Assembly (NCBI RefSeq): GCF_009863985.1
Contig: NZ_WEZT01000008.1
Location: forward strand, 76,193 to 123,615
Length of the DNA stretch: 47,423 bases
DNA from: Furfurilactobacillus milii
Lineage (GTDB): Bacteria > Bacillota > Bacilli > Lactobacillales > Lactobacillaceae
Direction: 5' to 3'
The notes beneath the pieces were generated by a model. The model searched no databases, was not told where the DNA came from, and saw only the letters and a list, made by a program, of their open reading frames with translations. Positions 40,044 through 45,093 of this stretch are shown here, in pieces (within the stretch, counting starts at the first letter, position 1; the number at the start of each line of letters is the position of its first letter). The position numbers and the translations under genes were made by a program.

Positions 40044-41861
40044 ATGTGTGGAATTGTTGGAGTGACAGGAAACGAAAATGCGGTTGAAATGTTGATGAAT
40101 GGTCTCCGTCGTTTGGAATATCGTGGCTACGATTCAGCCGGAATTTACGTGAACGACCAAAATGGCAAAGATTACTTAGTTAAAGAAAAAGGCCGCGTGG
40201 CTGATCTGGCTAAGGCAATCGGTGAAGATGTCCACGGTTCCACGGGGATTGCGCATACGCGGTGGGCAACGCATGGACAACCTAGCGTTGCCAATGCGCA
40301 TCCACAAGTATCCGCTGATGGGCGTTTTTACTTGGTCCACAACGGCGTCATCGAAAACTACATTGAATTAAGAGACAAGTATCTCCAAGATGTAACGTTC
40401 AAGAGTGAAACAGATACTGAGGTCGTTGTTCAATTAATCGACTACTTCGTCAAACATGATAACTTAACCACCTTAGAGGCCTTCCGCAAGGTACTTTACT
40501 TGGTGGGAGATTCTTCATACGGTTTCTTGCTGATGGATCGCGAAGAACCGGACACTTTGTTTGTTGCTAAAAACAAAAGTCCATTGCTAGTTGGTGTCGG
40601 CAATGGCTTTAATGTCGTTTGCTCAGATGCCATCGCAATGCTGAACTACACGCATGATTTCATTGAGATGCAGGACGGCGAAATCATGATCTTAACGCCT
40701 GAAAAAGTTGATATTGAAGACGAGGAAGGTCACCACATTACCCGTTTGCCATTCCACGTCAGTATGGATGCCAGTGAGGCCGATAAGGGAACTTATCCAC
40801 ATTACATGTTGAAAGAAATTGATGATCAACCAACTGTCATGCGTAAATTAGCACAAACGTACTTTAATGATGACGGACAAGTGACTATCGATGACGAACT
40901 GTTGGCGGATCTACAATCAGCTGACCGGTTGTATATTGTTGCTGCGGGAACAAGCTACCACGCTGGTCTAGTCGGTGAACGTTTGTTTGAACGGCTAGCA
41001 GCGGTACCGACCGAAGCCCACGTGTCCTCAGAGTTTGCTTATAATTCACCCATTCTCTCCAAACATCCATTCTTTATTTTCCTGAGTCAAAGTGGTGAAA
41101 CTGCTGATTCCCGTGAAGTGTTAACTGAGGTAAACGCAAAGGGTTATCACAGTTTGACAATCACAAATGTGCAAAACTCAACGTTATCGCGTGAAGCAAC
41201 TTACACAATGCTGTTAAATGCGGGTCCAGAAATTGCGGTTGCTTCTACCAAGGCTTATACGGCTCAAATTGCTGTAGAAGCTATTATTGCTAAGGCGTTA
41301 GGAGAAGCAACGCAACAAGTGGCCGCAGCCGATTTTGACTTGCGTCGCCAACTGGGACTGGTCGCTAATGGTATTCAAGCTTTAGTTGATCAGAAAGAAC
41401 GGTTTGAAGCTGTTGCTAAGGATAATTTTGTCGATCAACGTGATGCTTTTTACATTGGGCGTGGCATTGACTATGCGGTTTCACTTGAAGCCTCGTTGAA
41501 ATTAAAGGAAATTACCTACATTCATTCCGAAGGGGTCGCAGCCGGTGAATTAAAACATGGCCCAATTGCATTGATTGAGTCCGGCACGCCGGTCATCGGT
41601 ATCATTACCCAAGAACGAACGGCTTCACTGACACGTAGCAATTTGGCAGAAACTGCCGCTCGGGGTTCCCACATCATGACGATTGTGACGAAGTCGTTGG
41701 CTAAACCACATGATGATATTATTTTGGAAGACGTCGATGAGATGTTAACGCCATTATTAACCATCATTCCGGCTCAGCTAATTTCCTACTACACGAGTTT
41801 GCTTAAGGGATTGGATGTTGATAAACCACGGAATTTGGCTAAGAGTGTCACGGTTCAATAA
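40044..41861 (+). CDS. glmS: Glutamine-fructose-6-phosphate aminotransferase (isomerizing)
   Basis: Makes glucosamine-6-phosphate from fructose-6-phosphate and glutamine. The 605-residue protein begins MCGIVG; the Cys after the initiator Met is the catalytic nucleophile, which fixes the start at 40044 rather than three codons earlier. HTRWATHG and HNGVIENY belong to the glutaminase domain (1-240), and two SIS domains follow (SQSGETADS; STKAYTAQ), ending AKSVTVQ. It feeds GlmM. Confidence 0.98.
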   Translation: MCGIVGVTGNENAVEMLMNGLRRLEYRGYDSAGIYVNDQNGKDYLVKEKGRVADLAKAIGEDVHGSTGIAHTRWATHGQPSVANAHPQVSADGRFYLVHNGVIENYIELRDKYLQDVTFKSETDTEVVVQLIDYFVKHDNLTTLEAFRKVLYLVGDSSYGFLLMDREEPDTLFVAKNKSPLLVGVGNGFNVVCSDAIAMLNYTHDFIEMQDGEIMILTPEKVDIEDEEGHHITRLPFHVSMDASEADKGTYPHYMLKEIDDQPTVMRKLAQTYFNDDGQVTIDDELLADLQSADRLYIVAAGTSYHAGLVGERLFERLAAVPTEAHVSSEFAYNSPILSKHPFFIFLSQSGETADSREVLTEVNAKGYHSLTITNVQNSTLSREATYTMLLNAGPEIAVASTKAYTAQIAVEAIIAKALGEATQQVAAADFDLRRQLGLVANGIQALVDQKERFEAVAKDNFVDQRDAFYIGRGIDYAVSLEASLKLKEITYIHSEGVAAGELKHGPIALIESGTPVIGIITQERTASLTRSNLAETAARGSHIMTIVTKSLAKPHDDIILEDVDEMLTPLLTIIPAQLISYYTSLLKGLDVDKPRNLAKSVTVQ

Positions 41862-43408: not shown

Positions 43409-43747
43409 TTAACCGACTTGGTTTTCTCTGAGAATAGCATCGACAACAGCTTGCATTTCTGGTGTCTTAATCCATTCTTCCCAGTGATCCATATCCCAAC
43501 CTTGCATGAGAAAATGATGATTAATGTAATCTTCATATTTAATCACGTTTGCTGATTCAGGAATATTGAGTTTTAGAATGCGGACCTCTTTAATGAACTT
43601 TTTCTCGGCTGCAAATTCTGCACGCCCATTGTGAACCATGTTGCCAATTTCCATGTACTTTGAGCCATCATTTCGGGTGATTTCCTCAATCATGTCTAAC
43701 GATTCATGGCCTGGTTCTTTTAATGGTGCTGGTTCTTCTGCCATCAT
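43409..43747 (-). CDS. Uncharacterised acidic protein
   Basis: A 112-residue soluble protein that I do not recognise. AAAGGAG lies 6 nt before the first of two ATG codons. It is acidic at the N-terminus (MMAEEPAPLKEPGHESLDMIEE) and has no signal peptide, membrane segment or cysteine. Its C-terminal half (INHHFLMQGWDMDHWEEWIKTPEM) is rich in Trp, His and Met, an unusual mix that could bind a partner or metal. It stands alone between candidate RNAs. Confidence 0.8.
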   Translation of the reverse strand: MMAEEPAPLKEPGHESLDMIEEITRNDGSKYMEIGNMVHNGRAEFAAEKKFIKEVRILKLNIPESANVIKYEDYINHHFLMQGWDMDHWEEWIKTPEMQAVVDAILRENQVG

Positions 43748-43819: not shown

Positions 43820-43901
43820 AAAAAAAACCACCATCTTGCGACGGTGGGCGGCATAAGAGAGAAAGAGAATTGATTAGAAGGTAATTACTAAATACCTTAC
43901 G
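43820..43901 (-). ncRNA. Candidate CcpA-controlled small RNA (~82 nt)
   Basis: Bounded by a consensus promoter and an intrinsic terminator only ~82 nt apart. The predicted start at about 43901 opens directly into a hairpin (AAGGTA/TACCTT, 43898-43893 and 43883-43878). A ~30-nt unpaired C/U-rich stretch follows (TTCTCTTTCTCTCTTATG), complementary to Shine-Dalgarno-like sequence. The terminator is CCACCGTC/GATGGTGG around GCAA plus T8. It holds no reading frame with a start site. The layout and cre control recall S. aureus RsaI-type carbon-catabolite sRNAs, though no sequence relation is claimed. Confidence 0.7.
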
Positions 43902-43906
43902 AGAAC

Positions 43907-43935
43907 AATATACCTAATAATGAAAGCGCTGTCAA
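43907..43935 (-). promoter_or_regulatory. sRNA promoter with perfect cre
   Basis: On the minus strand TTGACA (43935-43930), 17 bp, TATATT (43912-43907). A perfect cre (TGAAAGCGCTGTCA, 43921-43934, plus-strand reading) covers the -35 and part of the spacer, so CcpA would repress it on preferred sugars. The 43936-44168 stretch to the next promoter shows no gene. Confidence 0.8.
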
Positions 43936-44168: not shown

Positions 44169-44205
44169 TGTAAGCGGTTACAAAACAATCAGAATCGGTT
44201 AGAAT
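44169..44205 (+). promoter_or_regulatory. Promoter with perfect palindromic cre
   Basis: cre TGTAAGCGGTTACA (44169-44182) overlaps the -35 TTACAA (44178-44183); 16 bp later lies TAGAAT (44200-44205). It drives the small membrane peptide and probably the NTF2-like gene. Confidence 0.78.
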
Positions 44206-44245: not shown

Positions 44246-44350
44246 ATGGGGTTTCAGGTTGAACTAGCAATCATTGCCATTACCGCAATTGTAATTATGG
44301 TGTTGTTGGGCATTTTGGGACTGCATGACGGTCGTCACCTACACACTTAA
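44246..44350 (+). CDS. 34-residue single-helix membrane peptide
   Basis: The frame starts ATGGGGTTTCAG and ends LGLHDGRHLHT. It contains one hydrophobic helix (LAIIAITAIVIMVLLGILGL) flanked by an acidic/polar N-terminus and a His-rich tail. AAGGAG lies 8 nt upstream at an ideal distance, and a cre-controlled promoter precedes it, so it is very likely expressed. It has no homologue known to me. The NTF2-like gene starts 35 bp later with its own binding site and no terminator between, so both share a transcript. Confidence 0.7.
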   Translation: MGFQVELAIIAITAIVIMVLLGILGLHDGRHLHT

Positions 44351-44385: not shown

Positions 44386-45093
44386 ATGACTAAGCAACTT
44401 TTTAATCGAAAAATATTGGTAAAACAAGATGATGGACGTCAATTTATTGATGTTATCGAAGACGCAACGCATTTATCCTGGGCATCTACAGTTGATGAAA
44501 CATTACAACAACGTGATGTGGATGCTGTAATCACGCGGCTCGCTGACGGCGTATTCAACTTGAATTGGTTGGGATTACGCGGCGCAATGTCAGAAACGAT
44601 GGACTTTAATCGTCATACATTAGTTGGCGTTCGGTTTGATTCGGAAAAGGGACCACAACGGTTTGCTGGTAGTGTTCAATTATTAAATGATGATGGAACG
44701 CCTGACTTGAGCCCGTTTACGAATTGCCAAATCGTGTTGGCTTTTTGGAATGCCTTCTTTAACCGTCACGATGTCTCTGCGGTGACACAGTATGTGGCGC
44801 CAGAGTTTATTCAACATAATCCAAGCATTGCCGATGGTGCGGAAGCATTTACACATTATTATCGAGTTTTGTTTGGTCCTCAAGGGAGTTTGCGCGAGTC
44901 GAAACGGACGGTTGTCAGTGTAGCTGACCGAGATGATCTTGTGTATTTGCATGTTATTAGACAGGATTCTCCGACAGCGACCGAAATGGCCGAAGTTGAT
45001 ATCTTCCGTGTTCGCGATGGTCAGTTAGTTGAACACTGGGCGGTGAAACAACCGTTTCCAAACCATAGTGCAAACGGACACCCGATGTTTTAA
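44386..45093 (+). CDS. Two-part protein: MoaF-like N-terminus and NTF2/SnoaL-like C-terminus
   Basis: A 235-residue soluble protein. The first ~105 residues resemble a small beta-barrel of MoaF type (FNLNWLGLRGAMSETMDF). The rest is a SnoaL/NTF2-like cone domain (CQIVLAFWNAFFNRHDVSAVTQYVAPEFIQHNP, ending VDIFRVRDGQLVEHWAVKQP), a fold used by isomerases, cyclases and binding proteins. No catalytic assignment is possible. GGGGGTGGGG precedes the ATG. CcpA control is likely through the upstream promoter. A terminator follows at 45180. Confidence 0.8.
   Translation: MTKQLFNRKILVKQDDGRQFIDVIEDATHLSWASTVDETLQQRDVDAVITRLADGVFNLNWLGLRGAMSETMDFNRHTLVGVRFDSEKGPQRFAGSVQLLNDDGTPDLSPFTNCQIVLAFWNAFFNRHDVSAVTQYVAPEFIQHNPSIADGAEAFTHYYRVLFGPQGSLRESKRTVVSVADRDDLVYLHVIRQDSPTATEMAEVDIFRVRDGQLVEHWAVKQPFPNHSANGHPMF

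Follow-up and report, generated by a model that had tools for sequence, protein, structure and literature searches.

The window analysed here is a 47,423-nt stretch of the Furfurilactobacillus milii genome. On its minus strand, positions 43820 to 43935 hold a compact element running from promoter to terminator. The promoter consists of the −35 hexamer TTGACA (43930..43935) and the −10 hexamer TATATT (43907..43912), recognised in the sequence and by a promoter scan; the two are separated by 17 nt, match the consensus at 11 of 12 positions and form the best of six promoter-like sites within 3 kb. A cre (CcpA operator) with the sequence TGACAGCGCTTTCA overlaps the −35 hexamer (43921..43934, minus strand) and shows 0 mismatches to TGWNANCGNTNWCA, which we take to be the cre consensus. 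An earlier note had described this pairing of promoter and perfect cre, and the description (43935-43907) is confirmed. Because the scan at a loose cut-off found no more sites than shuffled sequences (6 versus 8.0 expected), the promoter alone would prove nothing; the terminator scan found 4 sites versus 2.3 expected.

Judging from the −10 hexamer and allowing 7 nt after it, the transcript would begin with G43900 and form an RNA of ∼81 nt (43820..43900, minus strand) ending in U8 at 43820, against the ∼82 nt from promoter to terminator estimated previously. The predicted transcript comprises a 5′ hairpin with a 6-bp AAGGUA/UACCUU stem (43878..43898), suggested by folding and by homologues; an 18-nt C/U-rich seed, CAAUUCUCUUUCUCUCUU (43855..43872), predicted to be unpaired in homologues; and an intrinsic terminator (43820..43847) with a stem of eight pairs (43847-43828) and T8 at 43827-43820, detected by the terminator scan and by covariation. 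Folding of 82 nt (43901-43820) returned this order of elements, with the C/U stretch left open between hairpin and terminator, and supports the architecture proposed in the note; the energy of −18.4 kcal/mol (z −3.5) was equalled by 1 of 200 shuffles. No open reading frame of at least 40 aa lies over 43820-43900. The element has its own promoter and intrinsic terminator and no reading frame, as expected of a trans-acting base-pairing small RNA (sRNA). The sequence GGG is absent from the 81 nt, and the only Rfam match above the gathering score in the whole window is a tRNA.

Downstream on the same strand lies c0 (43409..43747), a gene of 112 aa without an assigned function. No Pfam, NCBIfam or solved-structure relative of c0 was found; Foldseek gave no match with E up to 0.001, and the best VIA-align result had a Z of 2.6 and an rmsd of 4.9 over 78 residues. 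The family of this ∼100-aa protein is represented in loci L351-L373; the AlphaFold model is confident, with a pLDDT of 93.9 and a b-b-a-b-a-a topology, and 44 aligned members share an invariant N-G-R-x-E. The genes upstream of the sRNA vary between loci; from recognised sequence features we take these neighbours to be glmS, glmM, nagB and a transporter ATPase. In the window, the leaders at 40044 (glmS) and 42206 (nagB) carry half or the whole of the palindrome ATTGGNCTATACCAAT, as is seen in several genera, and presumably this palindrome resembles a NagR/GntR operator. A second perfect cre, TGTAAGCGGTTACA at 44169-44182, overlaps a plus-strand promoter-like site, GTTACA-17-TAGAAT (feature 44169-44205), which faces a 34-aa open reading frame (44246-44350) with a good Shine-Dalgarno sequence and then a gene at 44386-45093 (plus strand) that we take from its sequence to be SnoaL-like. 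The intergenic region upstream of the sRNA may hold two divergent CcpA-controlled units.

In a BLAST search with a 161-nt query, 18 of 60 genomes (counting that of the window) proved to carry the element, whereas the 23 genomes from outside the Lactobacillaceae gave no hit. The exact 18-nt seed occurs in 179 of 397 genomes of the family, representing 16 of 40 genera, while the reversed pattern occurs in 0 of the 397. A pattern scan of named genomes gave at least 119 matches, and 102 of the matches listed have an sRNA-like context; the other 17 listed, which are outside the Lactobacillaceae and without such a context, were left out (one of them, L101, has a terminator-like hairpin after the seed). 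The sRNA-like loci listed belong to Lactiplantibacillus, Levilactobacillus, Limosilactobacillus, Ligilactobacillus, Latilactobacillus, Liquorilactobacillus, Loigolactobacillus, Lentilactobacillus, Secundilactobacillus, Paucilactobacillus, Furfurilactobacillus, Dellaglioa, Pediococcus and Periweissella, together with a few records named Lactobacillus or Lactobacillaceae and one Weissella.

Since the seed was the search key, its constancy in these loci proves nothing, and a covariance model was therefore built to find copies without the exact 18-mer. The model recovered the RNA in 9 of 13 genomes of seed-positive genera that lack the 18-mer, one copy (G001) being split over two contig ends. In all eight complete homologues found in this way the 16-nt core AATTCTCTTTCTCTCT is unchanged, and the flanks, hairpin and terminator vary. 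As the model was trained on seed-bearing copies, this test is fairer, not blind, and copies with an altered seed could be missed. With stricter filters, the model gave no strong hit in 50 other genomes (best E 0.02), and two positive controls scored E below 1e-16. Nine weak hits in seed-negative genomes were inspected as candidate diverged homologues and none was convincing; two weak model hits, L175 (G031) and L181 (G064), have a seed-like C/U tract beside a hairpin and are possible remote relatives of the sRNA. The lone copy from Weissella minor (L148) retains the exact seed; its hairpin and terminator differ, and a cre is not recognisable.

The seed is predicted to be open as well as conserved: its mean unpaired probability exceeds 0.8 in 96 of 105 distinct copies folded singly. 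Covariation was scored on 21 copies selected for alignable terminators, with the structure taken from the window's fold. In this set 95.5% of pair cells hold standard pairs, versus 28-58% when the partners are slid; six of the eight pairs in the terminator stem are altered at both positions, and no shuffle out of 500 reaches the covariation score. The 5′ hairpin is paired in 97.6% of cells in the 21 homologues and is conserved mainly as sequence; some Lentilactobacillus copies carry one GGG, located in this stem. RNAalifold predicted no pairs on a mixed alignment because the terminators did not align, and the resulting model R1 was therefore sequence-only and left unused.

Across 112 distinct homologous promoters, the cre has 0 mismatches in 97 and at most one in 107; shuffled promoter regions yield on average none and 0.7, respectively. 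The operator lies over the −35 or the −10 in nearly all 112. Many copies from Limosilactobacillus and Pediococcus have it on the −10 instead of the −35, e.g. TGTAAGCGCTATCA in L149, and the five exceptions with two or more mismatches are L063, L099, L119, L148 and L155. Selection for repression predicts that an operator is kept while its place turns over, as is seen for this cre, and we infer that CcpA binds there. Its conservation across the Lactobacillaceae establishes that the element is real and far beyond chance, and the check on relatives proposed in the note came out in its favour for the seed, the cre over the promoter and the covarying terminator pairs. The seed appears all but frozen, with the place of the cre, the hairpin and the terminator varying around it.

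Long near-perfect antisense targets were sought and discarded: allowing 3 mismatches, the antiseed pattern matched 34 sites in 12 genomes, versus 40 for the reversed pattern (12 sRNA genes set aside), which is no general excess. Among the hits were leaders of a GRP sugar-uptake gene, matched at one site in G230 and at a different one in G000 and G005, and a gapped pattern gave 12 hits in 6 of the 12 genomes. The glucose-uptake gene of the GRP family, glcU (PF06800), is located in the window's genome at G000:C59:128417-129316, ∼8 kb from the sRNA and directly after a gene that we take from its sequence to be glucokinase-like (glk). The two genes are adjacent in this species (L339:10238-12220, equal to G000:C59:127337-129316), and both leaders contain AGAGAATTG, which is complementary to the seed. 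Among 294 leaders scored in this genome (a 0.3-Mb sample plus the window), that of glcU ranks third; the leaders of eno and of an aldo/keto reductase, named in the note as partly complementary, rank only 26th and 135th and are not upheld as targets.

To compare genera, glcU relatives were drawn from 41 genomes with the sRNA (sRNA+) and 30 without (sRNA−). The sRNA+ set holds the best 30 of 52 hits in the 41 genomes and does not include genera g6 and g14, which have only distant GRP proteins or none. From the sRNA− genomes, 19 of 29 hits were used and 18 scored, one having no readable start; seven of the 18 orthologues have identities of 52-60% and the rest 41-46%. Here sRNA− means that the exact seed is absent: 14 of the 18 loci come from genomes also covered by the covariance model and four do not (G299, G201, G133, G127), and for the sRNA− genus g19 one other genome (G329) has a copy. 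Pairing was scored as the best energy from 60 nt before to 15 nt after the start, with start codons chosen by script. The choice of glcU followed an initial inspection of part of this genome set, and the sRNA− comparison came later.

The median pairing energy of glcU leaders is −18.15 kcal/mol in the sRNA+ set (30 loci, 13 genera) versus −10.25 in the sRNA− set (18 loci, 9 genera), with p 7e-8 by locus and p 5e-5 by genus, kinship being ignored. Genus means do not overlap, if narrowly: the 13 sRNA+ genera are at −15.2 or below and the nine sRNA− genera at −14.9 or above. A background of 465 other leaders has a median of −10.7 and a 5th percentile of −16.6; 20 of the 30 sRNA+ leaders fall below that percentile and none of the 18 sRNA− leaders, which equal the background (p 0.61). 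Against only the seven sRNA− orthologues of similar identity (52-60%), the difference has p 8e-5, again ignoring kinship. Weak pairing (−12.0 to −14.0) is seen in five of the 30 sRNA+ leaders. GRP paralogues (n = 14) have a median of −12.3, with L249 from G177 reaching −19.6. The control gene glk shows no difference between sRNA+ and sRNA− (−12.4 in 17 leaders versus −13.0 in 7) and was rejected as a second conserved target; its leaders were unreadable in 6 of 30 loci, all of them sRNA+.

None of 100 composition-matched shuffled seeds reached the sRNA+ mean. When each genus was represented by a single leader, 3 of 300 dinucleotide-shuffled seeds equalled the true seed, and the reversed seed gave −15.3 versus −16.9; because these controls come close, part of the energy signal is simple purine-richness. 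Sequence words, picked after the leaders had been seen, are more specific. The word AGAGAGAA is found in nine of the 30 sRNA+ glcU leaders (nine genera), none of the 18 sRNA− leaders, 1 of the 465 background leaders and 1 of the 294 of this genome. The words AGAGAATT, GGCATRA and GCATAAG, which complement the less repetitive ends of the seed, occur in 11/30, 0/18, 3/465 and 6/294, and the reversed words in 0/30, 0/18, 6/465 and 3/294, respectively. With the caveat from the shuffle controls, glcU leaders thus show conserved complementarity that tracks the presence of the RNA. The predicted pairing covers a median of 17 base pairs and stops, on its 3′ side, anywhere from −22 to +5 relative to the start, in most leaders on the Shine-Dalgarno sequence or immediately before it. 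The glcU leader is the best target suggested by these comparisons.

We consider it likely, with a probability of about 0.74, that the element encodes a trans-acting, CcpA-repressed sRNA of the Lactobacillaceae that would lower GlcU translation through seed pairing. When a preferred sugar is plentiful, CcpA would occupy the cre over the promoter, no RNA would be made, and GlcU would be produced. As the sugar falls, the ∼81-nt RNA would be transcribed, and its open C/U seed would pair with G/A-rich sequence on the glcU Shine-Dalgarno or immediately 5′ to it, block the ribosome and lower GlcU translation. That the RNA is transcribed, that CcpA binds, that the pairing takes place in the cell and that translation goes down are all steps that we infer from sequence. 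The note's proposal of a CcpA-repressed, seed-pairing sRNA fits the retained cre, the constant open seed, the covarying terminator and the target complementarity that tracks the RNA.

The element could also be a 5′ leader or attenuator of c0, with transcription either stopping at the terminator or reading into the gene. The linkage is strikingly constant: in 89 of the 102 named loci among the matches listed, c0 follows in the same orientation no more than 300 nt downstream. Among the remaining listed loci, none was seen in the short stretch available in six, and the seed is intact both where c0 is 525-1245 nt away (five loci) and where it is on the opposite strand (two). Furthermore, c0 is kept in 22 of 23 family genomes of other genera (and in 0 of 7 genomes of other families), and no copy of the element was seen before it in the 19 of 22 sRNA-lacking genomes whose upstream region was displayed, several of which share the upstream neighbour type. 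A leader would also leave the match between seed and glcU unexplained. We regard this reading as improbable; c0 is probably a separate transcription unit. If the RNA does pair with the glcU leader, it might stabilise or activate the message and so ready cells to scavenge traces of glucose, and several paired stretches do lie upstream of the Shine-Dalgarno sequence instead of on it, with a 3′ end no closer to the start than −13 in 10 of 30 leaders. In 18 of 30, however, the pairing ends at −12 to −3, and in two it crosses the start codon, positions at which ribosome blocking is the usual effect; RsaI of Staphylococcus aureus is moreover reported to repress glcU_2 (accessible part of PMC9266662). 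Activation is unlikely, if slightly less so than a c0 leader. A sponge that sequesters another sRNA rather than mRNAs has a precedent in RosA of Bacillus subtilis, likewise a CcpA-repressed stand-alone sRNA (accessible part of PMC8216469). Yet RosA and RsaI are described there as binding their sRNA partners through G-rich regions, whereas the 81 nt of the lactobacillar RNA contain no GGG and are most constant in a C/U-rich part, which makes a sponge very improbable.

A closer competitor is an RNA that blocks purine-rich Shine-Dalgarno regions in general and has many targets; glcU would be one of these and not the main one, alongside nagB, MFS transporters and others in particular lineages. Two genomes with the RNA, G018 and G078, gave no match to GlcU at 1e-40, which means that there must be targets besides glcU. 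Leaders of nagB pair strongly in five Levilactobacillus loci (−16.9 to −20.7), the start region of an MFS-like transporter ranks second of the 294 in this genome, and the glk leader in this species carries AGAGAATTGA. On the other hand, none of the 20 largest clusters of sRNA-neighbouring genes in the background set has a median below −13.8, and strong glcU pairing is kept over 13 genera; the cross-genus comparison covered the neighbours of the sRNA, glk and the GRP genes. Of the genes to which position had pointed, glmS and glmM were rejected as targets, their leaders being at background, and so was nagB as a general target, since its pairing is strong only in the Levilactobacillus loci and one Secundilactobacillus (−16.1). 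A general blocker is a serious contender that we hold to be somewhat short of an even chance. Under the preferred reading of an sRNA that would lower GlcU translation, glcU is probably the most conserved of several targets, with nagB in Levilactobacillus and the MFS-like transporter in this genome as further candidates.

What is known of carbon control in lactobacilli mostly concerns CcpA and the sugar phosphotransferase system. In the open-access literature, we found no sRNA arm of this control and no description of the RNA, and the supplements of PMC5643018 and PMC8220740, lying beyond the accessible parts of those papers, could list it unnamed. The closest known system is RsaI (RsaOG) of S. 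aureus, which a review describes as CcpA-repressed, derepressed without glucose and blocking translation of glcU_2 at its Shine-Dalgarno sequence (PMC9266662, accessible part). The lactobacillar RNA is likewise a predicted stand-alone sRNA of similar size (RsaI 111 nt), with the same putative control protein and a candidate target gene of the same type. RsaI carries two G-rich regions binding other sRNAs and a C-rich mRNA-binding region, and it is conserved in Staphylococcus but not in Bacilli, according to the accessible part of PMC8216469. In contrast, the lactobacillar RNA lacks G-tracts, and hence the two G-rich regions, has a CUCUUUCUCUCUU seed, and gave no match to the RsaOG model of Rfam up to E 10; for repression of glcU mRNA at the Shine-Dalgarno sequence, it offers predicted pairing. 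The resemblance to RsaI is likely convergent. RosA (S345) is a sponge for RoxS and FsrA via G-rich regions (accessible part of PMC8216469), whereas the lactobacillar RNA, without G-tracts, matches an mRNA leader. RsaE is reported to pair with Shine-Dalgarno regions, and the RoxS/RsaE seeds are UCCCC (PMC9217828, accessible part); RoxS transcription is controlled by Rex (PMC8216469, likewise). The pyrimidine-rich seed is common to all three, but the lactobacillar seed alternates C and U and its promoter carries a cre.

The RNA thus apparently represents a new sRNA family of a known kind, one that would work like RsaI and is unrelated to it as far as sequence tells. That an undescribed family spanning at least 16 Lactobacillaceae genera has reached the RsaI circuit independently, with c0 as a possible partner, seems to us an evenly balanced proposition. 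If true, two apparently unrelated sRNAs, in Staphylococcus and in lactobacilli, brake the same type of transporter, and silencing of glucose uptake at glucose exhaustion would be a recurrent need. A broadly distributed sRNA whose single seed stays constant and whose target can be tested in food-grade species would also offer a clean system for studying how sRNAs control metabolism in lactic acid bacteria. The glcU leaders of L287, L293-L295, L297 and L298 carry cre-like elements such as AAAGCGCTTTCA (unscored), which suggests that in these genera CcpA may control glcU directly as well.
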